The translations under genes and the position numbers were made by a program. DNA of 64,000 nucleotides. It comes from Ensifer adhaerens (GTDB lineage Bacteria > Pseudomonadota > Alphaproteobacteria > Rhizobiales > Rhizobiaceae). The notes under the pieces are model-generated. The model did no database searches. It was not told the origin of the DNA and was given only the letters and a program-made list of their open reading frames with translations. Location of the stretch: contig NZ_LGAP01000007.1 in NCBI RefSeq assembly GCF_001270265.1, positions 1 to 64,000 on the forward strand. The letters are read 5' to 3'. Positions 587 to 60,468 of the stretch are shown here, piece after piece (the stretch's first letter is position 1; the number at the start of each line of letters is the position of its first letter).

Positions 587-611
587 AACCACGCGGAGCA
601 AATTTGGTTCC
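587..611 (-). promoter_or_regulatory. RpoE2/EcfG-type promoter of the DUF1236 gene
   Basis: On the minus strand GGAAC (611-607), a 17-base spacer and GTT (589-587) match the consensus of the alphaproteobacterial general-stress sigma factor. The GTT lies 32 bases upstream of the start at 555. Confidence 0.7.
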
Positions 612-658
612 TGTCGGAAGCGGATTTTGTTGAACATTGGTGATCTTTATGGGGGTGC

Positions 659-683
659 GGAACCAATGGACTACGCGGGCATT
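659..683 (+). promoter_or_regulatory. Loose RpoE2-type promoter candidate before the ECF sigma gene
   Basis: GGAAC at 659-663 is followed by 18 bases and TT at 682-683, fitting the looser GGAAC-N18/19-TT form but without the G of GTT. It is 47 bases upstream of the ATG at 730. If real, this sigma factor would belong to the stress cascade. Confidence 0.35.
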
Positions 684-729
684 TCGATCAGGATGAAAGT
701 GTTCACCAAGGTCCGAAAGGCAGCCCTTC

Positions 730-1254
730 ATGCGCTCCTCCCATTCGTTACGAGATCCGCGGTACGCCCCGATCGAGGCAGAGGTTGTAAATCTGATACC
801 GGCACTGCGCGCGTTTGCACGATCGTTTGCAACTTCCCAGTTTGAGGCCGACGACCTCGTTCAAGACACGCTGTTTCGTGCACTGCGCAGCCTCGACCGT
901 TTCGAACCGGGCACCAACTTGAAATCGTGGCTGTTCACGATCATGCACAACGCGTTCCGCACCCAGTACCGGATCCGCCAGCGCGAGCTGCCTGTCAGCG
1001 CCGACTATTTTTCAGAGCTGACGCTGCCGGTGGCGCCAACACAGGATTGGTGTGTGCTCAACACGCGATTGCGAACGGCACTGGAGTCGATCACGCCGGA
1101 GCATAGGGAGATCCTGATCATGATAGCTGGCTTCGGGTTGAGCTATCAGGAAGCCGCTGCCATCTGCCGATGCCCCGTCGGCACGATCAAAAGCAGGCTA
1201 AGTCGCGCGCGAGAAGAACTTGAACTTGAGATGCACGGCAATCCATTGAATTGA
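730..1254 (+). CDS. ECF (sigma-70 family group IV) RNA polymerase sigma factor
   Basis: A 174-residue protein with the two ECF domains. Region 2 (about residues 25-90) contains DDLVQDTLFRAL and the FEPGTNLKSWLFTIMHN stretch that contacts the -10 element. Region 4 (about 110-165) ends in the helix-turn-helix YQEAAAICRCPVGTIKSRL for -35 recognition. It would direct RNA polymerase to a specific promoter set. No anti-sigma factor or PhyR-like partner is adjacent, which is unusual for many ECF groups. The ATG at 730 has AAAGG about nine bases upstream. Many genes in this window carry EcfG-type promoters, so this could be an EcfG paralogue, but I cannot assign the ECF subgroup by eye. Confidence 0.88.
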   Translation: MRSSHSLRDPRYAPIEAEVVNLIPALRAFARSFATSQFEADDLVQDTLFRALRSLDRFEPGTNLKSWLFTIMHNAFRTQYRIRQRELPVSADYFSELTLPVAPTQDWCVLNTRLRTALESITPEHREILIMIAGFGLSYQEAAAICRCPVGTIKSRLSRAREELELEMHGNPLN

Positions 1255-1285
1255 GCTTCAGCGGCACCGGTCGCAGCGGGGCCGA

Positions 1286-1768
1286 TCACTCCGGGTGGTA
1301 ACCGTATTCGGCTTCGACGATCCGCAGCCCATTGAGATATTTCTCCGTCTCCACCCCTGCAACCAGCGCCTGCTTGAGATTGTCCAAGAGATCGGCATGC
1401 TTCACCGGAAGCGCGAGAGCGTTAGATGCAGCTCGCCTCACGAAGGCTGCCTCCGCCTCGGCTAGTCTTTTTGTCAGTGCCACGACGGCACTGACGATCT
1501 GGGCATCAAACCCACATTCCCGCAATCTTCCAGCCGACCAACCTGGGCCCTTCTCCAAAACATCGTGTAGATAGGCGACCACCTTTGCATCGATCCCATC
1601 CACAGCATTTGCAACGCGCTCACAGTGGGTAAAATAGGGCTTCCCCATCTTGTCAAACTGTCCAGCATGGGCTTCCGCAGCAACGTGCCTGGCAACAATC
1701 AGTGCCTCTTCTGCCGGCAACACCAAGCCTTGAGGCGAACAGTTCTCGTTGCCACGTGTCTCAATCAT
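1286..1768 (-). CDS. HD-domain protein resembling the hydrolase half of RelA/SpoT
   Basis: A 160-residue protein. After a short N-terminal segment it shows the layout of an HD phosphohydrolase: an ARHVAAEAHAGQ helix, GKPYFTHCERVA (first metal-binding His) and then AYLHDVLEKG (the HD pair) near residues 75-85. This resembles the (p)ppGpp hydrolase domain of bifunctional RelA/SpoT proteins; small stand-alone versions are often called GTP pyrophosphokinases. No synthetase domain is present, so synthesis is unlikely. The usual ED doublet after HD is replaced by EK, which leaves activity uncertain. The ATG at 1768 is preceded by AGGA; longer in-frame extension upstream runs through the CBS relic and is not credible. 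Confidence 0.65.
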   Translation of the reverse strand: MIETRGNENCSPQGLVLPAEEALIVARHVAAEAHAGQFDKMGKPYFTHCERVANAVDGIDAKVVAYLHDVLEKGPGWSAGRLRECGFDAQIVSAVVALTKRLAEAEAAFVRRAASNALALPVKHADLLDNLKQALVAGVETEKYLNGLRIVEAEYGYHPE

Positions 1769-1772
1769 CGAT

Positions 1773-1949
1773 TTATTCCTGGTTATGCGCCCCGCCCGGT
1801 GCCGTAACACCCTGCAATCCCGCGCCCGCAAGCGCCGGGTCATTGCGCGCCGCGTCAGCAAGGGAGACGACGCCCACCAGTCTTTTCTCGCGATTGAGGA
1901 CTGGAAGACGGCGGACCTGAATGTCGCCCATATTGCGGGCAACGTCGGA
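1773..1949 (-). pseudogene. C-terminal relic of a CBS-domain protein
   Basis: The minus-strand frame encodes about 58 residues that look like the last beta-alpha unit of a CBS domain (VRRLPVLNREKRLVGVVSLAD) followed by a tail ending GGAHNQE. The first CBS domain and the start are missing; homology stops near 1949, right where the promoter of the divergent small gene (1952-1976) begins. Full-length CBS-pair proteins are about 140 residues. I read this as a truncated gene, not a functional one. Confidence 0.6.
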
Positions 1950-1951
1950 TG

Positions 1952-1976
1952 GGAACCGATGCTGCAGTTTGAGGTT
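1952..1976 (+). promoter_or_regulatory. RpoE2/EcfG-type promoter of the small membrane gene at 2000
   Basis: GGAAC (1952-1956), 17 bases, GTT (1974-1976), 24 bases before the ATG at 2000. It begins within a few bases of the break point of the CBS relic. Confidence 0.65.
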
Positions 1977-1999
1977 TGGCATGGATCGCGAGGTCCGCT

Positions 2000-2215
2000 A
2001 TGCCGACGCTTGTTCGTTTCGTAATCCTGAACATTGGAATGGGCTTTTTGCTCGGGATGGCGACCGTCGGCGTGATTGTAATAATCGCTCCCGCTTCCCT
2101 TGGTCATGGTGAGGTCTTCGTACCTCTTGCTTTTGGACTTCAGGCCTATGCTTTCGGTGCCTCGTTCGGCCTCGGCGCCCTTGCGACCGCATTGATTTCG
2201 GGCGCCGAGAACTGA
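2000..2215 (+). CDS. Small membrane protein, two predicted transmembrane helices
   Basis: A 71-residue hydrophobic protein. The first helix covers about residues 6-30 (ILNIGMGFLLGMATVGVIVI) and the second about residues 38-66, rich in Ala and Gly. I do not recognise a named family, although small proteins with an N-terminal FVILNIGMGFLLG-like helix are frequent in rhizobia. The ATG at 2000 follows a GAGGT-like site and a GGAAC-N17-GTT promoter. The ORF could open at 1981, but that start would lie almost on the transcription start. Expected in the inner membrane, probably stress-induced. Function unknown. Confidence 0.6.
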   Translation: MPTLVRFVILNIGMGFLLGMATVGVIVIIAPASLGHGEVFVPLAFGLQAYAFGASFGLGALATALISGAEN

Positions 2216-2221
2216 CATCGT

Positions 2222-2485
2222 TCAACTGCGATCGACGAATTTATTGAAGCGGCTTTGTGCCCCGTCCGCAGTCTGCTCCTGATGTAGGAACAACAGCTTG
2301 TTGTGATCGAAGATGCGAAAGAACTCCTCCCAGGATATCGGTTCGAGCGTCTCGTTCGGTTCGCCGAAATCAATACGAAGAATGCCATCGTCCGACACGC
2401 CCTTGACGCGAGATGGACGCCCCCGGCGGGCTTCGACCCATTGTCGTATCCTGCCATGATCGGCGGTGGTTGAAGTGTCGCCCAT
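2222..2485 (-). CDS. Small conserved rhizobial stress-type protein
   Basis: An 87-residue soluble protein with conserved-looking blocks: RIRQWVEARRGRPSRVKG near the N-terminus, GILRIDFGEPNE in the middle and an aromatic segment ISWEEFFRIFDHNKLLFLHQ, then SRFNKFV at the end. Proteins of this form are common in alphaproteobacteria, often just called hypothetical. Function is unknown. A strong site (AAAGGAGGT) precedes the ATG at 2485 and a GGAAC-N17-GTT promoter lies 30 bases upstream. It converges with the membrane-protein gene ending at 2215. Confidence 0.75.
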   Translation of the reverse strand: MGDTSTTADHGRIRQWVEARRGRPSRVKGVSDDGILRIDFGEPNETLEPISWEEFFRIFDHNKLLFLHQEQTADGAQSRFNKFVDRS

Positions 2486-2514
2486 TTTTACCTCCTTTAG
2501 TGAAGAAGGGCTCT

Positions 2515-2539
2515 AACCGGCGTTAAATATATTTGTTCC
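2515..2539 (-). promoter_or_regulatory. RpoE2/EcfG-type promoter of the gene at 2485
   Basis: Minus strand GGAAC (2539-2535), 17-base AT-rich spacer, GTT (2517-2515), 30 bases from the start codon. Confidence 0.7.
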
Positions 2540-2672
2540 GCGCTGTCTCGAAATCGCAGTGGGACCCAACACCGGGCGATGAGGTCCTTAAGCAGCTCAT
2601 TTTTGTAGGCAATGGCGTTGACACTACCCGGACCGTAGAGCCGGATGAACAAAAGCCACGCGTTCTCTCAAG

Positions 2673-2777
2673 GTGCCAACACATATCAAGGAACCGGAAC
2701 CTGGCGAGTTGCCGGACGAAAGGCGGACACCCAACCCTGATGAGAAAGACGGGCGGCCGCTTCATATCCAATACTGA
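2673..2777 (+). CDS. Possible 34-residue peptide, Pro/Asp/Glu-rich
   Basis: A GTG-initiated frame with a very polar composition (KEPEPGELPDERRTPNPDE) that resembles short acidic peptides annotated in rhizobia. AAGG overlaps the GTG, so translation start is weakly supported. No function can be proposed and it could be chance. Confidence 0.3.
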   Translation: MPTHIKEPEPGELPDERRTPNPDEKDGRPLHIQY

Positions 2778-3220
2778 AAGGCATGCCACAGCTGATCGAA
2801 ACGGCGCACGTCTTGTCGCTGATGACGTCGGCAATGCGACGTCTATCTCCTGGTGCCAGTGGCCGCACCCGGTAACCCTCGATGGCAAAATGCCGTCCAT
2901 CAAGGCCAAGTGCTGGTGGCCGCCCGCTCGTCAGGCGATGCGCGCGTCGTCGCTTCCGGTTGTGAACTTGACTATATGGAAGTTGATGCGGCGCCGGCAC
3001 AAGGTGTCAGTACGCTGGATGAAAGCGCGTTTCGGGATGAAGAGCTCTATACGGTCATTGAAGTCGAGCACGCAAAAACCAGGACTGGTGCGCGGCCTGA
3101 TGGAAGGTGAGATATCGGTCGCGACGATCAAGCCGGTACAGATCTGAGGGGCGCCCTCAAAGCCTAGATCGGCTCGTGGACGGCGGGGCGGCCCGGACCG
3201 GGCTGGAGTCGGAGGAGCAG
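2778..3220. other. Stretch without a supported gene
   Basis: Several overlapping frames are open on both strands (for example 2853-3110 plus and 2931-3131 minus), but none has a convincing start site or a recognisable motif. It may be eroded coding sequence. Confidence 0.4.
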
Positions 3221-4474
3221 CTACTCGCCTGATGTCTCCGTCTCTGCCGGCGGCTCCCAGCCGAAGATACTGCGTCCACCCAGGGAGGCAGAACGCCTGA
3301 ATTCGCCGGCAACGATTTCCTTCAAATCAGGGCCGGTCACGTAATGTTCGAGGCGACGCGCCTGTTCATCAAGGCGTCGAAGCGCCTCGAGCTCTTCTGT
3401 GTGACCGAGTTTGCCCTTTGAAACGGCCGACTTCATGACCTTGAGTGTTTCGTCATAGATTTTCAGGGGGACAGGGAAAGGGTGGCGATCCTTGCCGCCG
3501 TGGGCCAGTGAAAACCGTGCGGGGTCGGAAAAACGGCATGGTGCCCCATGAACGACTTCAGCGACCATGGCCAGCGCCTCTACCGTTCGCGCGCCCACGC
3601 CCGGCGTTAGAAGCAGCTCCTGAAAATCCTTGGGCGCCCGCTCGGCAGCGGAGGCGAGCGTTGCATGCAGACGGCTCATGTTGACGTCCTTTTCCCGCAC
3701 GTCGTGATGAGCCGGCATGATCAGATGAGGGAGCGACAACTGATCAGGAATGTGTGCAAAGACAGGTTCTGCCCGCCGGACGGCGAGTGCTTCGCGAACA
3801 ATGCGATCGGGTCCCAATTTTGCAAGCAGATCGATCTGTCCCTCTCGCGATCTCTCTGCCCTTCGGTCGGCGAGATTGACAATGACACCTTGAGTGTTTC
3901 CTTCAATCGCCGCATGTGGGGAATCGAGAAAGCTCTCCAGGTTTTCCGACAGCCAGTGGTAGCGCCTGGCCTGTCGTTGATCGCCGTTCATGCCCTGCTG
4001 GACGACGACCCATTTTCCGTCGTCGGTGACGATGAAACCGTGCAGATAGAGATCAAAGCCATCCTGAACCGCGGCACTGTCGATCTTGGCAACGAGGCGG
4101 CTCACGAGCCGCTCCGCGTCAAGGCCAACTCGATCGCCGATGGCAAGGAGCTCCGACGGGGTCTTACGCGACTGCGCGCCGCGCCCACCGCAAACGTGGA
4201 TGCCAAGCTCTGCAGACCTCGGCAACAGTCCTCGCTTCAGTGCGCCGATGACGCTGGTTGTGATGCCGGAGGAGTGCCAGTCCATGCCCATGACTGCGCC
4301 GAAAGACTGAAACCAGAATGGGTGTGCCATTCTTCGAAGAAATTCGTCTCGACCATAGTGCAGGATGATGGCTTCGGTCATGACGCCCCCGAGCTTGGTC
4401 AGGCGATCGCCGAGCCACTTGGGCACGCGCCCGCCATGGAGAGGAAGATCAGCACTTCCCGAACGTTTTGCCAT
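3221..4474 (-). CDS. DUF763 domain-containing protein
   Basis: A 417-residue protein matching the DUF763 family along most of its length. It starts with a SADLPLHGGRVPKWL block (about residues 6-20), has FWFQSFGAVMGMDWHSSG near 55-70, a VCGGRG segment near 95, and a mid-protein VVQQGMN motif. A C-terminal region of about 150 residues is more variable and helical. The biochemical role is unknown; the family is widespread in archaea and bacteria and a nuclease or DNA-repair link has been suspected. It stands alone here, next to a LigD-like relic on the same strand. The ATG at 4474 gives the usual family N-terminus. Confidence 0.85.
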   Translation of the reverse strand: MAKRSGSADLPLHGGRVPKWLGDRLTKLGGVMTEAIILHYGRDEFLRRMAHPFWFQSFGAVMGMDWHSSGITTSVIGALKRGLLPRSAELGIHVCGGRGAQSRKTPSELLAIGDRVGLDAERLVSRLVAKIDSAAVQDGFDLYLHGFIVTDDGKWVVVQQGMNGDQRQARRYHWLSENLESFLDSPHAAIEGNTQGVIVNLADRRAERSREGQIDLLAKLGPDRIVREALAVRRAEPVFAHIPDQLSLPHLIMPAHHDVREKDVNMSRLHATLASAAERAPKDFQELLLTPGVGARTVEALAMVAEVVHGAPCRFSDPARFSLAHGGKDRHPFPVPLKIYDETLKVMKSAVSKGKLGHTEELEALRRLDEQARRLEHYVTGPDLKEIVAGEFRRSASLGGRSIFGWEPPAETETSGE

Positions 4475-4599
4475 GAGCTTATCCTATTGATCCACAATGG
4501 CGGATGGTGCGCTATAGCATTTGCGGCACGAGCCTGGAAGTTCGAGACCGGACGGTCGCTGGCTGGGTAAGGAGCTCGACTACCCTTTCGTTGGCCAAA

Positions 4600-4990
4600 A
4601 GGAGAAAGCGGAAAAACCCTGCTGTTCTCCATCCCCATCGCGTCCGCTTGGCACCGACCGGCGTTCTTGTCCTGAGCATGTCGAGCATCTTCTTGAGGGA
4701 GCTTGCGTCCTTTTCACTGAACCCGGTTCCGACCGAGCCGACGTAGGCTCAGTCGGCTCCGAGGGGAGGCGACGGCTTCAAGCGCGCCAGGCAGGGCTCG
4801 AGGCGTTCCGGCATGGGATCGAGCGGAAGATTGGGCTGCGCGGGTTCGCGGCGCCGGCGTGTCTGGGATTTAGCGACCTGATCCTTCAGAAGCAGCGGCT
4901 TGGCGCGCCTCGTCATTTGCGCGATCGGGTTTCGGCAGCGACCGACTTGCGCAACGCATCCATGATGTTGATGGGCGGATTCCATTTTCA
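4600..4990 (-). pseudogene. Relic of an ATP-dependent DNA ligase of the LigD type
   Basis: Read on the minus strand, three LigD-like fragments lie in order: MDALRKSVAAETR (about 4985-4940), an inter-domain linker ending LDPMPERLEPCLARLKPSPP (about 4845-4770) that normally leads into the adenylation domain, and YVGSVGTGFSEKD followed by LKKMLDMLRTRTP (about 4750-4650) from the oligonucleotide-binding domain. Between the last two, almost the entire adenylation domain is missing and an in-frame TGA (4751-4749) stands where a Trp codon is expected. The first fragment is in another frame. I infer an internally deleted, frameshifted non-homologous-end-joining ligase. Whether the phosphoesterase or polymerase domains survive nearby is not visible. 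Confidence 0.5.
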
Positions 4991-5042
4991 CATGCAACAG
5001 AGACAAATTGGCCCTGGTTTCAGGAGGATGCAAGTGGCCCGC

Positions 5043-5165
5043 TCTTTTGTGCAGTTGAGTTTGGACGAACGCCGCGTCTTTGCACGAACGCATGAGAAGC
5101 AGAGCAGCCAGGCAGCACAAGGACGAATCGCCCACCCGCTCGACAATCGGCCGTGATTGAGGTTC
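5043..5165 (+). pseudogene. Possible N-terminal relic of an IS30-family transposase
   Basis: The frame reads FVQLSLDERRVFAR, which resembles the HTH start of IS30-type transposases, and after a frameshift SPTRSTIGRD, which resembles their RSPSTIGRE recognition helix. No DDE domain follows and no terminal repeats were found, so this would be a tiny remnant. It directly precedes the VapBC operator. Confidence 0.3.
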
Positions 5166-5188
5166 TTCTCGCCCGAGCTGATGATTGT

Positions 5189-5247
5189 GTATATCCCATT
5201 GACATATCCCAGGGAAGAGCCAAAATGGATATGTCCGATGTATATCC
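5189..5247 (+). promoter_or_regulatory. Operator/promoter region of vapBC with inverted and direct repeats
   Basis: GACATATCC (5201-5209) and GGATATGTC (5227-5235) form a perfect 9-base inverted repeat with a 17-base spacer. GTATATCC occurs as a direct repeat at 5189-5196 and 5240-5247, flanking the pair. This layout directly upstream of an antitoxin gene suggests an autoregulatory site for the VapBC complex. Confidence 0.6.
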
Positions 5248-5262
5248 AAGAAGGTGTCGATC

Positions 5263-5493
5263 ATGGAACAGGGATCAGTGTTTCAAAGCAATCGGAGTCA
5301 AGCCGTAAGGCTCCCAAAGGCCGTAGCATTGCCAGACGATGTGAAGCGCGTCGATATTGTTGCGGTCGGCCGCACACGGATCATAACGCCTGCGGGCGAG
5401 GCTTGGGATAGCTGGTTCGATGGCGAAGCTGTAACAACCGACTTCATGATTGAGCGAGATCAGCCCGCTTTGCAGGAGCGCGACTCTCTATGA
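5263..5493 (+). CDS. vapB: VapB-type antitoxin
   Basis: A 76-residue protein with an N-terminal SpoVT/AbrB-like (swapped-hairpin) DNA-binding domain: QSNRSQAVRLPKAVALP is the classic VapB signature, followed by the strand pair VDIVAVGRTRIITPAG. The C-terminal part (about residues 45-76), with DSWFDGE, would wrap the toxin. It should neutralise VapC and repress the operon through the repeats just upstream. I chose ATG 5263 over GTG 5254 because AGAAGG sits eight bases before the ATG. The stop overlaps the vapC start (ATGA at 5490-5493), so the two are translationally coupled. Confidence 0.88.
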   Translation: MEQGSVFQSNRSQAVRLPKAVALPDDVKRVDIVAVGRTRIITPAGEAWDSWFDGEAVTTDFMIERDQPALQERDSL

Positions 5494-5903
5494 TGCTGAA
5501 ATACATGCTCGACACGAACATCTGCATTTTCACGGTGAAAAACCGGCCGCAGCAGGTACGTGACGCGTTTAACCGCCACAATGGTCAACTGTGCATCAGT
5601 TCGATCAGTTTGATGGAGCTGATCTATGGCGCAGAAAAGTCGGCTATGCCTGAAAAGAATCTATTTGTCGTAGAGGGCTTTGCCGCACGCCTTGAGGTGC
5701 TCAGCTACGACCAGGTGGCCGCAAGCCACACGGGACAGTTGCGCGCCGAGCTTGCTCGGGGCGGCACGCCGATTGGCCCATATGAACAGTTGATTGCCGG
5801 GCACGCGCGCTCCAGAGGCCTGATATTGGTAACAAACAACCGCCGTGAATTCGACCGCGTACCCGGTCTACGCGTTGAGGATTGGACCGTTTCGCCCGGG
5901 TGA
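5490..5903 (+). CDS. vapC: VapC-type toxin, PIN-domain ribonuclease
   Basis: A 137-residue PIN-domain protein of normal VapC length. The acidic residues that bind Mg are visible: the Asp in MLDTNIC (about residue 8), the Glu in SLMELIYG (about 43), and the C-terminal pair in TNNRREFDRVPGL. VapC toxins cut specific tRNAs or rRNA and halt translation; the target here cannot be predicted. It overlaps vapB by four bases. On a plasmid such a pair usually stabilises the replicon. Confidence 0.9.
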   Translation: MMLKYMLDTNICIFTVKNRPQQVRDAFNRHNGQLCISSISLMELIYGAEKSAMPEKNLFVVEGFAARLEVLSYDQVAASHTGQLRAELARGGTPIGPYEQLIAGHARSRGLILVTNNRREFDRVPGLRVEDWTVSPG

Positions 5904-6201
5904 GCCGGTTTCGGTCAAGGTTGCGGAATGCGCCGCAGCCAGGACGAACAGCGACTACGTCCGGGCGGGCAGGATTCTCGGCCCCCTATCTAGTTGCGAA
6001 CATGCTCGAGCGAACGGTCAGAGTGTGGTGATTGATCGGGCCGAACGATCGTCGCGGTGACAGCGCTACGGCGAATGGGCCCTGCCCTGCGAAATCTGAC
6101 CGACGATATTGACCGACTTGCCGCTCACTACGCGTCGACGCCGACAGCAGGTGCTCGGCGACCTTGAACGGCAAAGCCTTTCCAGGCGGCATCCTGTGGA
6201 G
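5904..6201. other. Intergenic stretch, nothing recognised
   Basis: Short frames only. No motif, terminator or RNA was identified between vapC and the promoter at 6202. Confidence 0.4.
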
Positions 6202-6226
6202 GGAACTTTACATTCAAATTAGTGTT
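6202..6226 (+). promoter_or_regulatory. RpoE2/EcfG-type promoter of the BON-domain gene
   Basis: GGAAC (6202-6206), 17 bases, GTT (6224-6226), 27 bases before the ATG at 6253. Confidence 0.7.
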
Positions 6227-6252
6227 TTCTGATTGAATGGAAGGACTTCACG

Positions 6253-6636
6253 ATGATCCTGATCGCACCCGATGGAGATAGACGATACGAACATGGCCGC
6301 GGGGCCGGCGCTGCGGGACTGCTGGCGTCAATTCGATGCGCTGTGAGTTCAGAAACGACTTTCAATACCGAGCGTCTCTGCTTCCGTACCTTGGGCAATA
6401 TGGTCGTGATAGAAGGGGTGCTGCCGGATACAGACGCCGCCCAAATCATTCGCCGAATAGCCAATGAGATCGCCGGAGAAGAGCATGTCATCGTGCGCGT
6501 AACTTGCATAAATCCGTTCGCTTCTTCCGAAACCCTAAAATCCATCCCTCATGCGCCTGTGACCCAAAGCATCACGAAGGGATCGGTCATGGAAAGAACG
6601 GCACCGCGCCAGGGTCGAGGCACCGGCAGTCCCTAG
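6253..6636 (+). CDS. BON-like domain protein
   Basis: A 127-residue protein. Residues 28-85 resemble a BON domain: an alpha helix, then LGNMVVIEGVLPDTDAAQIIRRIAN and a final VIVRV strand. BON domains bind phospholipids or surfaces and are common in stress-induced proteins. There is no signal peptide, so it is probably cytoplasmic or membrane-associated. The ATG at 6253 has AAGGA seven bases upstream. The last four bases overlap the end of the convergent gene at 6633. The C-terminal 40 residues are basic and unstructured. The family call rests on a single short pattern. Confidence 0.6.
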   Translation: MILIAPDGDRRYEHGRGAGAAGLLASIRCAVSSETTFNTERLCFRTLGNMVVIEGVLPDTDAAQIIRRIANEIAGEEHVIVRVTCINPFASSETLKSIPHAPVTQSITKGSVMERTAPRQGRGTGSP

Positions 6637-6947
6637 CGACGTCGGACGGACGCACCCCAAAGGTATCCTATGGCGCCGGCCGCGATCAAAACGGTAGCGA
6701 GGTGGTTCCTGATCCTGTTCTGCGTCGCTTCCAGAACGATGACCGCCTCGGTCACGGCCAAGCGGGACGTGCCGGCAATGATTGCGGCCAGCTCTGCGCG
6801 CAGGTGCGCAATATCGGTCCGCAGCGCCTCGAGTTGGGCCTGTCGAACCAGTGCGGCAGCGTCGCCTGGAGCCGTCTCCAGTACCTCGTCGACAGCCACG
6901 ACTTTTGCGACGTCGTCAGCGCTTTCGTTTCCGGTCTGATCCATCAT
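6633..6947 (-). CDS. ElaB/YqjD/DUF883-like membrane-anchored protein
   Basis: A 104-residue protein with a long N-terminal helical region (about residues 15-65, rich in Ala, Leu and Glu) and a single C-terminal hydrophobic helix containing VLIAAGAIGYLWG, followed by a basic RRR tail. That topology resembles ElaB/YqjD proteins, which tether to the inner membrane and can bind ribosomes in stationary phase. Homology is by architecture only. ATG 6947 has AGGAG six bases upstream; a second ATG follows immediately at 6944. A GGAAC-N17-GTT promoter is 35 bases upstream. Confidence 0.6.
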   Translation of the reverse strand: MMDQTGNESADDVAKVVAVDEVLETAPGDAAALVRQAQLEALRTDIAHLRAELAAIIAGTSRLAVTEAVIVLEATQNRIRNHLATVLIAAGAIGYLWGASVRRR

Positions 6948-6981
6948 GACTGTCTCCTCTGGCGTGAAGGCGATGCCACCC

Positions 6982-7006
6982 AACGGTAGAGACGGCGTGT
7001 TGTTCC
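6982..7006 (-). promoter_or_regulatory. RpoE2/EcfG-type promoter of the gene at 6947
   Basis: Minus strand GGAAC (7006-7002), 17 bases, GTT (6984-6982). Confidence 0.7.
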
Positions 7007-7071
7007 ATCGGAAAGGGCATGTCGCCCATTCACAAATGTCGACCACGTTGACGTGGCGCCAGCACCATGAG

Positions 7072-7096
7072 TGAACATGTGGCTTTCACACGCGTT
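7072..7096 (+). promoter_or_regulatory. Near-consensus RpoE2-type promoter before the gene at 7128
   Basis: TGAAC (7072-7076), 17 bases, GTT (7094-7096), 32 bases before the start. One -35 base differs from GGAAC, so it is a weaker candidate than its neighbours. Confidence 0.35.
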
Positions 7097-7127
7097 AGGA
7101 TAAGCAACTGCATTTACGGCGACGACG

Positions 7128-8054
7128 ATGCCTAAGCCCGAGGAAAAGTCCGATAACGAACCACGTATCGGCGCCACAGCGGAATTTGCCTACGACAGAA
7201 TGACCGTGGAGCGCTTCCGCGCGGCATTCCCCCGCGCTCGCTGGAACGAGGAGCAACGGCGTTGGTTCGTACCGGGCAAAACGGCCAGCAAGCGCATTGC
7301 CCAGTGGCTCGCGCGCGAGAGGGAAAGCCTCGATCTTCATGCGGATGCCAAGGGTCGCGATGCGTACGCTTTTGAGCCGATTGCCAGCCAATATCTCCAG
7401 ATCGCCGAGGATATTCACGTACGCACACCTTATTCCAAGGACGTTATTGAGCATCTGCGGGCGATCCCTTGGGCCCGCTGGGACGATGAGATACGCGCTT
7501 GGCGCGTACCATTTCGATCCTACGAAGCGTTGCGCCGATCCTGGCCCGAAATCGAGGCGGCGGCTCGCCGAAGCGAACCGGCAGAACAAAAGCGCCGACA
7601 GGAGCAGGAAAGGCTTACGCCGAAATACGAGCGCGCGAAGTTGCGCTACGGCGAACGTCGCCGCCGCCGCTATCCGGTTCCAACCGAGGGGCTGCCGCCG
7701 ATCGGTCGAGCGGTGATGACGTCTTCGTACGGCGTGGTGATTATCACTGACGTGACGGGCGAACTCGCCGAGCCTGGTGATATCATGCGGTTTTATCCGC
7801 ATGTTGCAGGAGATCCGCGCGATTTTGTCTGGGCCCGATGGCGGCCAGCATCATTGGAAGAACTGGTGGCAACCTGGCCGGCGCGAGAACGGCCGAATGA
7901 CCTCGAAAAAGGCCGCGGCTGGTGGAGGCCAAGTCTGGACGAACTGCGTATCGCCCGCTCGCAGGCGCGCAGCCTGGAACGCAAAAAACAAAGGAGAATA
8001 TCACGCTCAAACGAGAAGGAAGGTTCTCTGGCGGCACGGCCAGGCACGCGTTGA
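7128..8054 (+). CDS. Uncharacterised protein with two HARP-like repeats
   Basis: A 308-residue, Arg-rich protein. Two segments share a pattern: residues about 22-62 (YDRMTVERFRAAFPRARWNE, then RRWFVPG) and about 100-140 (YSKDVIEHLRAIPWARWDDE, then RAWRVPF). Both recall the HARP module of SMARCAL1-type annealing helicases, in which an aromatic/acidic helix precedes a W-x-P motif, but no helicase domain follows. A compact domain around residues 190-270 (GRAVMTSSYGVVIITDVTGE) is unassigned. No signal peptide, so cytoplasmic. The start at 7128 has only a weak ribosome site. It could bind nucleic acid; this is inference. Confidence 0.65.
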   Translation: MPKPEEKSDNEPRIGATAEFAYDRMTVERFRAAFPRARWNEEQRRWFVPGKTASKRIAQWLARERESLDLHADAKGRDAYAFEPIASQYLQIAEDIHVRTPYSKDVIEHLRAIPWARWDDEIRAWRVPFRSYEALRRSWPEIEAAARRSEPAEQKRRQEQERLTPKYERAKLRYGERRRRRYPVPTEGLPPIGRAVMTSSYGVVIITDVTGELAEPGDIMRFYPHVAGDPRDFVWARWRPASLEELVATWPARERPNDLEKGRGWWRPSLDELRIARSQARSLERKKQRRISRSNEKEGSLAARPGTR

Positions 8055-8228
8055 GCGCCGCCGGCCTAGTGTCGGAATTATCTCAGGGGCGTGCTACGGC
8101 GAAACGGAGGATCGCTCGTTGCAAACGGCGCGGGCGGCTCTGTCTCGTCGGGTGCCCCGATCCCGCGGTGGGTTTCAGGAACAATGACGGCTGTTCCGAC
8201 CTTTCCTCTTAAGCGGAGGTGGAGTTGC

Positions 8229-8455
8229 ATGACGCGCTATTTTTTGATCTTCCCAACGGTGACGAGGCAGACGCTGGACGAGCAGGGTTTGGAGCCTGCT
8301 TCGCGCGACGCGGTCATGCAGTAAATACCCGCATTCTCGTGGATGTTGCGCGGGATAGACTGCCTGACGGCAATGGCACTGAAATCTCCGTGTCAGTACG
8401 CACTGACACCGTCTCGTTAGCAACGCTGACATTTCAGAACCAATGGCTTGATTGA
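8229..8455 (+). pseudogene. Frameshifted DUF6894-like gene
   Basis: A good ribosome site (GGAGGTGG) precedes ATG 8229, which opens with MTRYF as in small DUF6894 proteins. The expected continuation is split between two frames: FFDLPNGDE in one, TLDEQGLEPASRDAV in the other, then TRILVDVARDRLPDGNG and a C-terminal LATLTFQNQWLD back in the first. A six-T run at about 8241-8246 is one likely shift point. The frame begun at the ATG stops early, after 31 residues. Either a recent pseudogene or sequencing errors would explain this. Confidence 0.55.
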
Positions 8456-8540
8456 CGGTCGCGGAATGGTTCCCGGGTCGACAAGTTCCGGTCGGGTTCA
8501 GGTGACGCGACGCGGACGATTTGTCCGCGTCGCGCACCCT

Positions 8541-8714: not shown

Positions 8715-8763
8715 GCGTTGGCTCCTTGAGTTAATGACCCTCGATTCATGCAAGGGTCTCCCC

Positions 8764-8788
8764 AACCGTACGATCGGCCGCCAGTTCC
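8764..8788 (-). promoter_or_regulatory. RpoE2/EcfG-type promoter of the KGG gene
   Basis: Minus strand GGAAC (8788-8784), 17 bases, GTT (8766-8764). Confidence 0.7.
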
Positions 8789-13893: not shown

Positions 13894-13905
13894 CGACTTC
13901 CTCGA

Positions 13906-51626: not shown

Positions 51627-52835
51627 ATGTTAAAAACCGCGAATCCCCAGTTTGAAAACGAGACGACGTCCGAGCGTATCACACGTCAGGCGACTGCGCT
51701 TTCGGACCGGTTGCGCGCCGTCGGTGAGATCGCTTTTCCGCCGAAGGCGATGAAAACCCTCAGGTCGTTTACCTCAGGGGAGGTCGCGCAGATCGTTGGG
51801 GTCTCGGACGGTTATCTCCGGCAATTGTCCTTGGACGGTCTCGGGCCGATGCCGGAACTGGGGACCGCTGGTCGCCGTTCTTATACGCTGCGCCAGATCA
51901 ACGAGCTTCGCGCCTATCTTGCCGAAGCGCGCCCGAAGGAAGCGCTGAAGTTCTGGCCGCGCCGCCGCGAAGGCGACAAGCTCCAGATCATCAGCGTTGC
52001 CAACTTCAAGGGCGGCTCGGCCAAGACAACGTCGTCGCTTTACCTCGCACAGGGGCTGGCGCTGCAGGGTTACCGCGTTCTGGCGATCGACCTCGATCCC
52101 CAGGCATCCCTGTCTGCCATGTTCGGTTATCAGCCCGAATTCGACATTGCCGAAAATACCACTCTTTACGGCGCGATCCGGTACGACGACGAGCGGGTCG
52201 GCATGCGTTCGGTGATCCGTTCGACCTATTTCGAGGGCATCGACCTGGTCCCGGGCAATCTCGAGCTCATGGAGTTTGAGCACGAAACCCCGCGCGCCAT
52301 GGGCAAGCGCTCCGGACCAGAGGATCTGTTCTTCCGCCGCGTCGCAGCCGCGATCAATGAAGTCGAGGCGGACTACGATGTCGTTGTCATCGACTGCCCG
52401 CCACAACTCGGCTTCCTGACCATGGGCGCTCTCAATGCGGCAACCGGCATGCTGGTGACGATCCACCCGCAGATGGTTGATGTCGCCTCGATGAGCCAGT
52501 TCCTATTGATGACCGCCGATCTGATCGCTGTCATCGAGGACGCCGGCGCGCACCTGAACTATGACTTCATGAAGTTCGTCGTGACCAGACATGACCCGCG
52601 CGACGTGCCCGAACAGGAGATCGTCGGACTGTTGCGCGACCTCTTCGGCAGCGATGTCCTCAAGGCCACGGCCTGGAAGTCGACGGCGATTGCAAATGCC
52701 GGCCTCACCAAGCAGTCGCTGTTCGAATTGTCGAAAGGTGCCGTCGGGCGGTCCGTCTATGATCGCGCCATGGAATCCGTCAATTCGGTCAACACCGAGG
52801 TGATCGACCTGATTTCGCAGGTATGGCAGCGATGA
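51627..52835 (+). CDS. repA: RepA, ParA-family partition ATPase
   Basis: A 402-residue ParA/Walker-type ATPase. An N-terminal helix-turn-helix region (FTSGEVAQIVGVSDGYLRQLS, near residues 50-70) precedes the deviant Walker A NFKGGSAKTTSS (near 128-140); the Walker B-type motif VVVIDCPPQLGF is near 255. RepA moves plasmid copies apart together with RepB-parS and represses the repABC operon. ATG 51627 gives the usual family length; ATG 51588 (415 residues) with GGA upstream is possible. First gene of the operon repA-repB-repC. Confidence 0.95.
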   Translation: MLKTANPQFENETTSERITRQATALSDRLRAVGEIAFPPKAMKTLRSFTSGEVAQIVGVSDGYLRQLSLDGLGPMPELGTAGRRSYTLRQINELRAYLAEARPKEALKFWPRRREGDKLQIISVANFKGGSAKTTSSLYLAQGLALQGYRVLAIDLDPQASLSAMFGYQPEFDIAENTTLYGAIRYDDERVGMRSVIRSTYFEGIDLVPGNLELMEFEHETPRAMGKRSGPEDLFFRRVAAAINEVEADYDVVVIDCPPQLGFLTMGALNAATGMLVTIHPQMVDVASMSQFLLMTADLIAVIEDAGAHLNYDFMKFVVTRHDPRDVPEQEIVGLLRDLFGSDVLKATAWKSTAIANAGLTKQSLFELSKGAVGRSVYDRAMESVNSVNTEVIDLISQVWQR

Positions 52836-52884
52836 GTGATTGCGTCTTCCCCTTGCTAGAATTCATTCCCCTTGGGCGGGATGC

Positions 52885-52900
52885 GTTGTCTGCAGACAAC
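52885..52900. promoter_or_regulatory. parS centromere-like site in the repA-repB gap
   Basis: GTTGTCTGCAGACAAC is a perfect 16-base palindrome that matches the repABC parS consensus GTTNNCNGCNGNNAAC. It sits between repA and repB, 29 bases upstream of the repB start, a position known for parS in Ti-type plasmids. RepB should bind here. Confidence 0.9.
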
Positions 52901-52929
52901 ACCTCGCCCCTATCGAGGAGGTCCTTCCA

Positions 52930-53946
52930 TTGAGCAAGCGCACCCAGTCCATTCGCTCGATGTTTGCCGGGCAGAGCGAGCACGCCGTTGACAATGACGT
53001 CAAGCGGCCGTCGCTGCCACGCGTGAGTTCCGGCGCAGTGCGCTCACTCAAGGACACCTTCTCCGACGTCGAGAAGGAGTATGAAGTTCTTCGCGCGAAG
53101 CTTGCTTCGGGCCAGATCGCCGTGGAGATCGACCCTTCTCTGATCGATCCCTCGCCTCTTGCTGACCGCTTCAGCGAGCAGGACGCAGTCAGTTTCGAGG
53201 CGTTGAAGACCTCGATCCGGGAAAGGGGGCAGGAAATTCCCGTCCTCGTCCGTGAGCACCCTTCGGTTACCGGCCGCTACCAGAGCGCCTACGGGCATCG
53301 CCGCATTCGCGCCGCTCGTGCACTCAATATCCCCGTTAGGGCCTATGTGCGCACGCTGACCGATGAAGATCTGGTCGTTGCGCAAGGGGTGGAGAACTCT
53401 GCCCGCGAAGACCTTAGCTTCATCGAACGTGCGGTTTTTGCGGGGCGTTTGGAGGATGCAGGATTTGCCCGAGCGCTGATCCAGTCGGCACTTTCCGTCG
53501 ACCGGGCTGAAGTTTCCAAGCTTGTCGCTGTTGCGCGCGCGCTGCCAGGTGAACTTGTTGACGCGATCGGGCGTGCGCCGAAGATTGGTCGCGGCCGCTG
53601 GCAGTCGCTCGTCGATGCGATCGGCAACGAGGCGGCATTGAAGCGTGCCCTGGCTGTTGCAACGAAGCCCGGCTTTGCGACACGGGAAACGGACGACCGC
53701 TTTATGGTTGCGTTTACGGCGGCCACCAAATCAGAAGAGGGGCCGGCCGCTCAGCTTGCGCCTGAGGTCGTTACCACCGGATCAGGCGCCGAAATCGGAA
53801 AGGTGGCCACGACCGACAAGCAATGGCGCCTGTCGATCCGGCGCGATCGCAATGACGGATTTGCAGATTATCTGACGGCGAAATTGCCCGAGCTGTTTGA
53901 AGCTTACGAGGCTGCGCTGACGGAAAAGCAGAGCAGCGCCGAATAA
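52930..53946 (+). CDS. repB: RepB, ParB-family centromere-binding protein
   Basis: A 338-residue ParB-type protein. The ParB nuclease-like domain (residues 60-165) contains IRERGQEIPVLVRE and the GHRRIRAARALNI box; the HTH region (about 165-215) follows with SFIERAVFAGRLEDAGF. A C-terminal dimerisation part ends at residue 338. It starts at TTG 52930, preceded by GAGGAGGTCC; the frame further upstream overlaps the parS site and is not coding. RepB binds parS and works with RepA in segregation. Confidence 0.94.
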   Translation: MSKRTQSIRSMFAGQSEHAVDNDVKRPSLPRVSSGAVRSLKDTFSDVEKEYEVLRAKLASGQIAVEIDPSLIDPSPLADRFSEQDAVSFEALKTSIRERGQEIPVLVREHPSVTGRYQSAYGHRRIRAARALNIPVRAYVRTLTDEDLVVAQGVENSAREDLSFIERAVFAGRLEDAGFARALIQSALSVDRAEVSKLVAVARALPGELVDAIGRAPKIGRGRWQSLVDAIGNEAALKRALAVATKPGFATRETDDRFMVAFTAATKSEEGPAAQLAPEVVTTGSGAEIGKVATTDKQWRLSIRRDRNDGFADYLTAKLPELFEAYEAALTEKQSSAE

Positions 53947-53992
53947 GGCGCCGTACTGAAGACTGAAAATTTAGAGGAGCAGCACCGGCGAA

Positions 53993-54046
53993 AGAAAAAA
54001 GGCCCCCGAAACACCGTCTCCGAAGGCCCTTTCTCGTCATTTGGCG
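53993..54046 (-). ncRNA. ctRNA, antisense regulator of repC (IncA type)
   Basis: In the repB-repC gap the minus strand has a -35 TTGACT (54081-54076), 17 bases, then GAATCT (54058-54053), which predicts a start near 54046. Transcription would end at a hairpin (AAAGGGCC/GGGGCCTTT arms, about 54033-53997) followed by a T tract (forward AAAAAA at 53995-54000). The result is an RNA of about 54 bases, the size of ctRNAs in other repABC plasmids. It is complementary to the repC leader and should lower RepC synthesis, giving copy control and incompatibility. Confidence 0.75.
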
Positions 54047-54151
54047 ATTTCGAGATTCGCACTTCCGGGATTCACAGTCAAGACTCTCTCAAGAGATTTG
54101 GCACCGTTTCGGTGACCGTTAGTTCTTTGCCTGAAAAAAGGTAAGGCTGAA

Positions 54152-55369
54152 ATGGACAGGTTATCCGTAACGACGCCATTCGGGCGGCGGCCGATGTCGC
54201 TTGCCCTGGTGAAGGGACAGATCAGATCGTCCGGCATCAAAGCCGGAAAGACCGTGGACAAGTGGAAGGTCCTTCGCGACGTATGCGGGGCAAGGACGCT
54301 TCTTGGTGTCCAGGACCGTGCTCTGGCTGTGCTGAACGCACTGCTGTCGTTCTATCCGCAAAGCGAATTGGCCGAGGGTAAGGACCTCATCGTGTTTCCG
54401 TCGAACGCGCAGCTGACCCACCGTGCCAACGGCATCGGCGGCAGCACGCTTCGCCGCAGCCTCGCTACATTGGTCAATGCGGGCCTGGTTTCGCGCAAGG
54501 ACAGCCCGAACGGCAAGAGATACGCACGCAAAGACGGCGAGGGCGGCATCGAACAGGCCTATGGCTTCGACCTCGCGCCGCTGTTGGCCCGCTCGGAAGA
54601 ACTGGCAGGAATGGCGCAGGAAGTTGCGGCCGAACGCCGACGGTTTCTGATCGCCAAGGAGCGTGTCTCCTTGTGCCGCCGAGACATTCGCAAGCTGATT
54701 ACCGCGGCGATCGAAGAGAGGGCCGCCGGCGATTGGGCTCATGTCGAAGACATATTTGTCGCGCTCGTCGCACGAATTCCACGCTCGCCGAGCCTCAAGG
54801 ACTTAGCCGCCATCGCCGACGAATTGACGCTTTTGCACGAAGAAGTCGTCAACATGCTGGATGATAACGAACTTTCCGGAAATATGACTGGCAATGCTGT
54901 TCTATTTGAGCAGCACATACAGAATACAGAATCCGAATCCTTTAATGAACTTGAACCTAGCTCTGAAAAAGAGCAGGGCGAAAAGCCGGGTGCAGAGACT
55001 GGAGCAAAGCCGAAGGGCTTGCAGCCATTCCCGTTGGAGATGGTCTTGCGGGCCTGCCCGGAGATCAAACCGTTCGGGCCAAACGGCGAAGTTTCGAGTT
55101 GGCGCGACCTCATGATGGCGGCCGTGACGGTCCGCTCGATGCTTGCGGTCAGCCCGTCGGCCTATGAGGAGGCGTGCGAGGTAATGGGCCCGGCAACGGC
55201 AGCATCTGTGGTGGCCTGCATCTACGAGCGATCAGGTCACATCAATTCGGCCGGCGGCTATCTCAGAGATCTGACGAACCGGGCACGTCGCGGAGAGTTC
55301 TCGATTGGGCCGATGCTGATGGCACTGCTTCGCGGGGCGCCGACATCCAATCTGGCTTACGCGTCGTGA
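54152..55369 (+). CDS. repC: RepC replication initiator
   Basis: A 405-residue RepC. The N-terminal winged-helix domain (about residues 35-125) contains GARTLLGVQDRALAVLNALLSFYP and HRANGIGGSTLRRSLATLVNAGLV; the C-terminal half (about 280-400) contains the conserved MVLRACPEIKPFG and GGYLRDLTNRARRGEFSIGPML. RepC binds oriV, which in this class lies inside repC in an AT-rich stretch; here bases 54855-54970 are visibly AT-rich. Translation is probably controlled by the ctRNA and a leader stem (GGCACCG/CGGTGACC near 54101-54118). Confidence 0.95.
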   Translation: MDRLSVTTPFGRRPMSLALVKGQIRSSGIKAGKTVDKWKVLRDVCGARTLLGVQDRALAVLNALLSFYPQSELAEGKDLIVFPSNAQLTHRANGIGGSTLRRSLATLVNAGLVSRKDSPNGKRYARKDGEGGIEQAYGFDLAPLLARSEELAGMAQEVAAERRRFLIAKERVSLCRRDIRKLITAAIEERAAGDWAHVEDIFVALVARIPRSPSLKDLAAIADELTLLHEEVVNMLDDNELSGNMTGNAVLFEQHIQNTESESFNELEPSSEKEQGEKPGAETGAKPKGLQPFPLEMVLRACPEIKPFGPNGEVSSWRDLMMAAVTVRSMLAVSPSAYEEACEVMGPATAASVVACIYERSGHINSAGGYLRDLTNRARRGEFSIGPMLMALLRGAPTSNLAYAS

Positions 55370-55598: not shown

Positions 55599-55781
55599 TT
55601 AGTGCGATGGCTGCGACATCATCGGCAGATAGACTGTCGGAGTTGAGGGCTTGTTGCCAGCAAGCTCGCTTCCGGCAAGCAGATAGGCCGAAAGCGCCAA
55701 GACCGAGATGAGTAATATGCCAATGGGCAGGCCGGCGGAGGGGTGACGTTCGGGCTTCAGATAGTTTCTATCATCCATCAT
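55599..55781 (-). CDS. Small single-pass membrane protein
   Basis: A 60-residue protein with a charged N-terminus (MMDDRNYLKPERHPS), one transmembrane helix (about residues 20-40, PIGILLISVLALSAYLLAG) and a short polar tail. GGAGGT precedes the ATG at 55781. Function unknown. A GGAAC-N18-GTT element lies 24 bases upstream, so stress induction is likely. It is the first gene after repC on the opposite strand. Confidence 0.6.
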   Translation of the reverse strand: MMDDRNYLKPERHPSAGLPIGILLISVLALSAYLLAGSELAGNKPSTPTVYLPMMSQPSH

Positions 55782-55805: not shown

Positions 55806-55831
55806 AACGGGGAAAGGGTGCAGCTGGTTCC
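55806..55831 (-). promoter_or_regulatory. RpoE2/EcfG-type promoter of the gene at 55781 (18-base spacer)
   Basis: Minus strand GGAAC (55831-55827), 18 bases, GTT (55808-55806). Confidence 0.55.
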
Positions 55832-59311: not shown

Positions 59312-59518
59312 TCAGTTGCGCAGGTTGTCAGCCGACATCTTGCCTGATTTGCGGTCCTCGACCAGGTCGTAACTGATCTTCTGTCCATCGTTCAGACCGC
59401 GCATGCCGGCGCGCTCGACGGCGGAAGCATGGACGAAGACGTCCGTACCGCCATCGTCGGGCTGGATGAAGCCGTAGCCCTTCGTCGAGTTAAACCACTT
59501 CACGGTACCAGTCGCCAT
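59312..59518 (-). CDS. Cold-shock protein (CspA family)
   Basis: A 68-residue single cold-shock domain. TGTVKWFNSTKGYGFI (residues 3-18) holds RNP1 (KGYGFI) and DVFVHASAV (about 27-35) holds RNP2. It binds single-stranded nucleic acid and melts RNA secondary structure. Length is normal for the family. The purine-rich GGGGAACG before ATG 59518 serves as the ribosome site. Single gene; a long hairpin lies just downstream. Confidence 0.93.
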   Translation of the reverse strand: MATGTVKWFNSTKGYGFIQPDDGGTDVFVHASAVERAGMRGLNDGQKISYDLVEDRKSGKMSADNLRN

Positions 59519-59721
59519 AACGTTCCCCTTTGTCAGTCAGCCTTGGAACCTGGGGTTCGCTCGGCGTTTGTTGCGCCATCGAAACTAGCCCATCGGGCGG
59601 AGAAGGGAAGAGGGTGCTCCAAATTTATGTAGTTTGCGCCGGTTCCTTTTTGCGCTTGCTCTAACAGCGCGACAGATAGCCAGCAAAGCTTCCGGATCAA
59701 GTTGGCATCAATGGTTGACTT

Positions 59722-59737
59722 GTTGTCTGCAGACAAC
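59722..59737. promoter_or_regulatory. parS site 2 (distal cluster)
   Basis: GTTGTCTGCAGACAAC, identical in sequence to the site between repA and repB. Confidence 0.85.
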
Positions 59738-59823
59738 AAATGGCTGGGGCCACACCCACGATTTTTGAGGCATTAACGCGGATGCGTGTACGCTATCGTT
59801 CGGAAGGTAGTCCGACCTTCGAT

Positions 59824-59839
59824 GTTGTCTGCAGACAAC
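59824..59839. promoter_or_regulatory. parS site 3 (distal cluster)
   Basis: GTTGTCTGCAGACAAC, identical to sites 1 and 2; 102 bases from site 2. Confidence 0.85.
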
Positions 59840-60055
59840 AAAAGCAAGACCGTGCCATTGCCGGGCCAAATGGAACGTAAGGTTCGCAGCCTTGCTCTGC
59901 CCTCTTGGTGCGCATGGACGCGGGGTGGGAGATCATTGGGCGAATCTGCGCCGCGAAGTGTATCAGGAAGGCAAGTGCGATAACGCGTGTTGAGTGCGGT
60001 CGCGCTCGACGCTGCTGCTGTATTGCGTGCGTTGAGCGGCGTGCGAAAATCTGTA

Positions 60056-60100
60056 CTCCACTCCACTCCACTCCACTCCACTCCACTCCACTCCACTCCA
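60056..60100. repeat. CTCCA microsatellite, nine units
   Basis: Nine perfect tandem copies of CTCCA between parS sites 3 and 4. On the minus strand it would read WSGVE over and over, but no real gene includes it. A tract like this is prone to slippage. Confidence 0.9.
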
Positions 60101-60185
60101 ATCGGTCGAACCGTCGTTGTTCGTTCTTTCACTGATTGACGAACGCGTGACTTTTAGGTTTTCGAGGGCTTGGACCGTGGACGAT

Positions 60186-60201
60186 GTTGTCAGCAGACAA
60201 C
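60186..60201. promoter_or_regulatory. parS site 4 (distal cluster, one-base variant)
   Basis: GTTGTCAGCAGACAAC: one base differs from the others but it still fits GTTNNCNGCNGNNAAC. Confidence 0.8.
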
Positions 60202-60347
60202 ATCGGACGAATCGGACGGTCCCAACGGCAGGCTGATGAAGGGAATTGTTAGCCGGGATGCAAGTGGGGCTATGCGTGCTGCGCGTGCCGATCATTGTCG
60301 TCTGCGACGGTCACGGATGAGCTCTAGGTGACCGGTCAAGAAGGAAT

Positions 60348-60363
60348 GTTGTCTGCAGACAAC
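60348..60363. promoter_or_regulatory. parS site 5 (distal cluster)
   Basis: GTTGTCTGCAGACAAC, identical to site 1; 80 bases ahead of the stress promoter at 60444. Confidence 0.85.
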
Positions 60364-60443
60364 AACGCCACTTCCATTCCTGTAGGTATGCTTTGAGGTG
60401 GGCGGACGATGGCCATCTCGCGAGCGTTGTTTTAGATCGCCGT

Positions 60444-60468
60444 GGAACCTGAGATTCTCGTCTGCGTT
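60444..60468 (+). promoter_or_regulatory. RpoE2/EcfG-type promoter of the DUF3606 gene
   Basis: GGAAC (60444-60448), 17 bases, GTT (60466-60468), 25 bases before the ATG at 60494. Confidence 0.7.

Follow-up and report, generated by a model that had tools for sequence, protein, structure and literature searches.

A probable plasmid-borne stress-response island around the EcfG-type sigma gene rpoE5 in Ensifer adhaerens

The described systems closest to the locus reported here are the alphaproteobacterial PhyR-NepR-EcfG module with the RpoE2 regulon of Sinorhizobium meliloti, and two further sigma factors, RpoE5 of S. meliloti (SMb21484, ECF15; PMC6180224) and EcfG2 of Rhizobium etli (PF00052; PMC3892343, PMC3188799), all papers being cited from excerpts of their text. 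The rpoE5 gene of S. meliloti is activated by RpoE2 and its transcript rises with RpoE2 (PMC6180224); it is already known that members of the EcfG2 subgroup lie on plasmids (PMC3892343) and that plasmid genes have a larger share among the heat-induced genes of R. etli (PMC4167512). For the EcfG2 regulon, the excerpts of PMC3892343 report no motif and describe no clustering, and our search of the open-access literature, which did not cover most subscription papers, turned up no account of rpoE5 or ecfG2 being surrounded by promoter islands. Here we analyse 64 kb of Ensifer adhaerens (C67:1-64000, hereafter the window, from a genome of 7.46 Mb in 99 contigs), the left part of which is, very probably, one arm of a plasmid-borne general-stress-response island around an rpoE5 orthologue. 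The core of the island would be this non-canonical EcfG sigma gene with an EcfG-like promoter of its own, surrounded by many units of one or two genes, each with its own predicted GGAAC-N17-GTT (or N18) promoter. Under stress, the chromosomal PhyR-NepR-EcfG (RpoE2) system would switch on, and RpoE2 would then transcribe the island from these promoters and switch on rpoE5, as in S. meliloti, while RpoE5, sharing the sites, would amplify or prolong transcription of the island and of itself.

The sigma gene and its promoter

A gene near the left end of the window is assigned to the EcfG-type sigma factors by NCBIfam and Pfam matches (Table 1), and by its sequence it is RpoE5, i.e., a non-canonical EcfG. 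In a tree of 38 sequences, from which locus L026 was left out, it belongs to a clade of 13 with the RpoE5 orthologues (support 100/99), apart from canonical EcfG; the S. meliloti row of this tree is an unannotated pSymB gene, 66.7% identical to the window sigma and taken as rpoE5 by its replicon and promoter match. Orthologues of 61-68% identity are present in 10 of 15 other genomes of the genus (12 loci), and identity to the EcfG encoded on contig C12 of the same genome is 45%. Near-fixed differences, some of them within sigma region 2, separate the RpoE5 clade from the canonical EcfG clade. No nepR gene was found beside the window sigma gene, and because the two NepR genes found in the genome lie on contigs C12 and C5, it is not the canonical EcfG. 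S. fredii (L184:20624-20752, minus strand, E 0.007) and S. meliloti (L183:20555-20698, minus strand, E 0.45) each have a weak NepR-like open reading frame (ORF) on the strand opposite to the stretch that immediately follows rpoE5, and such an ORF is mentioned for S. meliloti in the excerpts of PMC6180224.

Upstream of the gene, a GGAAC-N17-ATT sequence at 659-683 (plus strand) is likely its own promoter. The same layout precedes all 12 same-genus rpoE5 orthologues as well as the S. meliloti and S. fredii genes, and at the S. meliloti pSymB site 25 bases agree letter for letter with the published rpoE5 promoter (PMC6180224).

Promoter sites in the window and their conservation

A first-pass annotation of the window had listed eleven EcfG/RpoE2-type promoters, each a short distance before a gene. 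All eleven are present at the places and on the strands it gave; GGAAC is followed by N17 (nine sites) or N18 (two) before GTT, which is the EcfG/RpoE2-type arrangement, with 23-49 nt from the -10 element to the ATG or GTG and a sequence resembling a ribosome-binding site (RBS) at each. The C before GTT of the consensus printed for R. etli (N16-CGTT) occurs in 5 of the 11 sites only. The promoter type and a likely co-regulation of mostly uncharacterised small genes on a single replicon thus stand, but the sites are not dispersed as had been described: nine lie within 587-16346, and the remaining two (55.8 and 60.4 kb) are close to repABC. Absent from that annotation, the sigma gene sits amid the nine clustered sites. 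As for the gene names it had proposed, Pfam support is weak for BON and DUF3606, and no match is significant for ElaB-like.

Shuffled sequence, the control proposed with the annotation, confirms the enrichment: the window contains 22 GGAAC-N16-19-GTT sites, whereas 100 dinucleotide shuffles average 6.58 and never exceed 14. The spacing is specific, with 15 window sites at N17, nine of them at an RBS and start, and 0-6 sites (0-2 at starts) at each of the other spacings from N6 to N33. Genome-wide, GGAAC-N16-18-GTT is found 499 times, and the window has 21 of these matches instead of an expected 4.1 (Poisson 3e-9); with a GGAG 3-33 nt further on, 11 of the 76 genomic matches fall in the window, which makes up 0.86% of the genome (0.56 expected, Poisson 3e-11), and eight of these belong to the listed eleven. 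Gene starts follow 12 of the 21 window sites (the listed eleven and an N16 site at 41394), compared with 3 of 54 in 760 kb of sampled background from the same genome, and none of four in the next 140 kb of C67. A reversed-pattern control (866 matches in the genome versus 499) was set aside, the reversed pattern having other neighbouring bases, and shuffles and other spacings were used instead. Bidirectional promoters (GGAAC-N17-GTTCC, readable on both strands) were considered and rejected for want of enrichment: this form makes up 14 of 375 sites at N17 but 90 of 802 at control spacings.

In the regions fetched from relatives, a strong promoter is kept at 24 of 39 orthologues of the listed promoter genes, even where protein identity falls to 42%. 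Window genes that lack any of the eleven sites give 5 of 66, with the sigma rows tallied separately: none for the HD (0/10), CBS (0/11), DUF763 (0/2), DUF5710 (0/3) and PHB depolymerase-like (0/1) genes, and one each for YflT (1/9), PBP1 (1/2), gene 15338 (1/1), the transpeptidase (1/3) and SDR including paralogues (1/24). Hence the idea that GGAAC and GTT are just common in the window, by chance or composition, retains next to no probability: about half of the 22 sites do lie outside a promoter position, but the shuffles, the lack of a comparable excess at control spacings and the conservation refute it for the group of sites, while single sites could still be due to chance. On sequence evidence, the window contains genuine EcfG-type sites that cluster and are for the most part conserved.

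Across the twelve rpoE5 regions, 159 promoter-gene pairs fall into 78 groups, of which 48 are single, and island content therefore turns over. A Pfam scan of 76 of the 78 group representatives matched 54 families, and the 25 listed include DUF892, CsbD, Ku, DUF4142, DUF2934, DUF982, BON and Nramp; the gene content of related islands is stress-type.

Clustering in relatives and the sigma factor reading the sites

Six of the ten rpoE5-bearing genomes of the genus, those with long contigs, were used to count sites over 200 kb around rpoE5, with ten control spacings. GGAAC-N17-GTT numbered 91 against a control mean of 8.2 in G014, 53 against 6.0 in G004, 43 against 6.8 in G001, 25 against 5.7 in G002, 20 against 5.1 in G010 and 17 against 5.2 in G013, and 200-kb flanks of the canonical ecfG were not enriched in the two relatives G014 (6 against 4.9) and G010 (7 against 6.5). 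Pooled over the six, density within 10 kb of rpoE5 is 4.75 N17 sites per 10 kb, 11 times the control value of 0.42, with a plateau of about 1.8-1.9 at 40-80 kb and a drop to 0.83 (control 0.28) at 90-100 kb; the densest 20-kb bin holds or adjoins rpoE5 in G010, G002, G004 and G001. Likewise, about 10 kb on each side of the 12 same-genus loci (236 kb) contain 106 N17 sites, 56 of them at starts, and 2-21 sites (0-6 at starts) at other spacings. In the six 200-kb regions (L103-L162), an RBS-backed start within 400 nt is lacking for 63 of 249 N17 sites and for 182 of 370 sites at control spacings; some of the startless N17 sites may drive small RNAs or antisense transcripts.

Clustering extends to other genera, for which six plasmid regions of 40 kb each were taken from 60 of 953 plasmid records. 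Given as N17 sites over the mean of other spacings (highest other spacing in brackets), the values are 18/1.8 (7) in Rhizobium sp. C104, 12/1.1 (3) in R. phaseoli, 14/1.0 (3) in R. leguminosarum, 7/1.1 (3) in Shinella and 7/0.8 (3) in S. meliloti; three Rhizobium plasmids and one Shinella plasmid thus carry hotspots like that of the window. No convincing hotspot was seen in S. fredii, 4/0.8 (4), or in a 20-kb region of G018, 3/0.5 (4).

The driver of the island would be RpoE2, RpoE5 or both. We give somewhat less than an even chance to the island being read only by the chromosomal EcfG (RpoE2), rpoE5 being just one more target within the cluster that itself controls few genes or none. Consistent with this, the excerpts of PMC6180224 give one putative target for RpoE5 of S. 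meliloti versus 320 genes raised by RpoE2, and versions of three window promoters, matched by eye, occur in G015, which lacks an rpoE5 orthologue. RpoE2 as sole reader fits less well with the pooled relatives, in which sites are densest near rpoE5, with the partial independence of the plasmid-borne EcfG2 of R. etli (PMC3892343), and with the promoters themselves. When one pattern was applied to four genomes in an unselected list, N17 spacing was found in 39 of 43 island but 12 of 31 chromosomal sites and a C before GTT in 6 of 43 but 18 of 31, contigs being assigned to the chromosome from their size or the presence of ecfG, related promoters being counted more than once and part of the 31 chromosomal sites being chance (N24 control, 1-5 per genome).

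These differences in spacing and -10 element would also be expected if RpoE5 preferred GGAAC-N17-GTT without the C before GTT and controlled the island for the most part, RpoE2 acting as the trigger, a possibility that we advance only tentatively. It agrees with the near-fixed differences between the two sigma clades, some of which lie in sigma region 2, and with the number of N17 sites followed by AGGAG, 11-38 in rpoE5 genomes versus 8-17 in five genomes without (p 0.023, uncorrected for kinship). It is weakened by the single S. meliloti target (PMC6180224), and by the partly chance make-up of the chromosomal set and the repeated counting of orthologous promoters. Moreover, among the eleven window sites, the promoters without the C are close to rpoE5 and most of those with it more distant (p 0.015), but this fails in the six relatives (18/73 versus 12/53, p 0.84), and a general gradient of -10 type with distance from rpoE5 was rejected. 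Finally, another extracytoplasmic function (ECF) sigma factor with a similar motif, e.g., of the ECF26 type (GGAATA/GT), is a very improbable reader of the sites: some S. meliloti promoters do respond to both RpoE2 and RpoE6, but GGAAC with GTT matches the ECF15 consensus and not GGAATA (PMC6180224), and the sigma gene of the island is itself EcfG-type.

Several observations weigh against a stress-response island organised around rpoE5. Two of the eleven promoters are poorly kept (small membrane gene 1/9, second small membrane gene 0/4), and those of the KGG and DUF3606 genes are without an orthologue in the conservation comparison. Within the same genome, 20-kb stretches, picked on purpose, around the canonical ecfG (C12; five sites, two at starts) and the second NepR gene (C5; seven sites, four at starts) also exceed background. 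Among the relatives, the densest bin of G013 lies 40-60 kb from rpoE5, G001 has a second cluster at 60-80 kb, and G014 is dense over most of 180 kb within its 200 kb, with 12 sites in the rpoE5 bin and 14 in the top bin. Overexpression of RpoE5 in S. meliloti raised one putative target (PMC6180224), and RpoE5 may therefore be a minor player. Five same-genus genomes without an rpoE5 orthologue hold 8-17 N17 sites with an RBS, and in one of them, G015, counterparts of three window promoters (ElaB-like, PepSY and secreted protein, all with a C before GTT) are retained, as judged by eye, so that RpoE5 is not needed for these three.

In our view, the left part of the window is best explained by the rpoE5-centred island. 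Dozens of uncharacterised small proteins would then belong to one pathway, and one way for a global stress regulon to expand may be that genes with their promoters accumulate around a sigma gene carried by an accessory replicon. The dense and conserved promoter group also supplies a concrete target list and promoter set for asking what additional EcfG sigmas on rhizobial plasmids do. A broader proposal, which we regard as doubtful, concerns the plasmid EcfG paralogues, namely RpoE5 in Ensifer/Sinorhizobium and EcfG2-like sigmas in Rhizobium and Shinella. Each would be the centre of a rapidly changing regulon island made up of tens of single-gene units with sigma-specific promoters, and these units, subject to gain and loss, would move with accessory replicons and extend the general stress response in a portable form; RpoE5 would also differ from the chromosomal EcfG in its -10 preference.

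Genomic setting and comparison with described systems

The window holds repA, repB and repC and is therefore part of a plasmid; among plasmids, its first 20 kb match pT173c of Ensifer canadensis best. The contig ends 0.7 kb left of rpoE5, the other flanking arm lying beyond it. The same genome carries the canonical locus on C12, with EcfG, NepR, PhyR and an HWE kinase side by side. On another contig, three promoter sites with GGAG within about 4.5 kb (C5:23146-27607) form a second small hotspot at the second NepR gene (C5:25029).

Table 1. Predicted features of the window (promoters are EcfG-type; "kept" gives orthologues with a strong promoter in the fetched regions)
Feature	Position	Strand	Remarks
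EcfG-type sigma gene, S. meliloti RpoE5 orthologue	730-1254	+	PF04542, PF08281, PF22029 (sigma-70 regions 2 and 4)
DUF1236 promoter	587-611	-	kept 4/4
DUF1236 gene	262-555	-	PF06823 2.1e-20
HD-domain gene adjoining rpoE5	1286-1768	-	PF13328 below cut-off
Small membrane gene promoter	1952-1976	+	kept 1/9
Small membrane protein gene	2000-2215	+	no Pfam match
Conserved small gene promoter	2515-2539	-	kept 2/4
Conserved small gene	2222-2485	-	no significant Pfam match
BON-like gene promoter	6202-6226	+	kept 5/5
BON-like gene	6253-6636	+	PF04972 E 0.049, below cut-off
Promoter of gene first named ElaB-like	6982-7006	-	kept 3/3
Gene first named ElaB-like	6633-6947	-	no significant Pfam match
KGG gene promoter	8764-8788	-	no orthologue found in fetched regions
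KGG stress-induced motif protein gene	8541-8714	-	GTG start; PF10685 6e-8
DUF6766 promoter	8848-8873	+	N18; kept 2/2, both N18
DUF6766 membrane protein gene	8903-9562	+	GTG start; PF20554 3.2e-91
PepSY promoter	14918-14942	-	kept 6/7; probably serves YflT too
PepSY-domain gene	14565-14879	-	PF13670 3.1e-6
YflT general-stress protein gene	13906-14520	-	PF11181 8.8e-7; start from gene model, longer ORF from 14565; probably co-transcribed with PepSY gene
Leftover site	15074-15098	-	no ORF close downstream; may be distal promoter or RNA promoter
Small secreted protein gene promoter	16322-16346	-	kept 1/1
Small secreted protein gene	15928-16278	-	no Pfam match; signal peptide judged by eye
Possible twelfth promoter	20498-20522	+	8 nt before L,D-transpeptidase (YkuD) ATG at 20531; strong promoter at 1/3 orthologues
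Candidate N16 site	41394-41417	-	32 nt before glycosyl hydrolase family 4 gene
repABC replication/partition genes	51588-55369	+	AAA_31 (ParA type), RepB, RP-C families; repA, repB, repC in tandem
Second small membrane gene promoter	55806-55831	-	N18; kept 0/4
Second small membrane protein gene	55599-55781	-	no Pfam match
DUF3606-like gene promoter	60444-60468	+	24/25 bases identical at G014:C5:838977
DUF3606-like gene	60494-60676	+	PF12244 0.0026, below cut-off; no orthologue in fetched regions

Of the window sites outside the listed eleven, those at 41394, 20498 and 15074 are given in Table 1, and all others are intragenic or away from a fitting start. The HD-domain gene has an orthologue in 10 relative loci, in eight of them within about 1.2 kb of rpoE5. 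Beside it, a CBS-domain gene (1773-1982, minus strand) is shortened at its 5' end (69 aa versus 141 aa in E. canadensis), and its start is overlapped by the promoter of the small membrane gene. Also inside the island lie a VapC-like PIN-domain gene (5490-5903, plus strand), similar plasmid copies of which are annotated VapC, and an Xre/MbcA-type antitoxin gene (10777-11172, minus strand). Two Rfam small RNAs were detected, Atu_At1 (4554-4663, minus strand) and, about 1 kb before repABC, ar15 (50390-50502, plus strand). Between the two promoter groups, 24956-49117 is a run of long ORFs with none of the eleven sites, which includes the glycosyl hydrolase family 4 gene (39990-41360). Near the repABC end is an ArdC-type anti-restriction protein gene (62746-63642, plus strand). 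The stretch C67:71299-71436, which aligns solely with the final quarter of the RepC N-terminal model, may be left over from another replicon.

Compared with the PhyR-NepR-EcfG/RpoE2 regulon of Alphaproteobacteria, the window is alike in consensus, promoter-to-start distance and kinds of target genes, and the canonical module is present in this genome; in contrast, its promoters are packed in a plasmid island and no NepR gene lies beside the plasmid sigma. RpoE5 of S. meliloti differs in its flanks, with 7 N17 sites in 40 kb, two of them at starts, against a mean of 0.8 at other spacings, and in the weak NepR-like ORF downstream, which has no counterpart in the window, but it is an orthologue of the window sigma, with the identity given above, the same clade and the same GGAAC-N17-ATT layout. 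For EcfG2 of R. etli, the Rhizobium rows of the tree, among which the R. etli gene itself does not figure, fall outside the RpoE5 clade and inside the non-canonical group. Like the window sigma, EcfG2 is non-canonical, plasmid-borne and located away from the phyR-nepR locus (PMC3892343, PMC3188799), and hotspots of such promoters likewise surround the EcfG-like sigma genes on the plasmids of three other Rhizobium strains.

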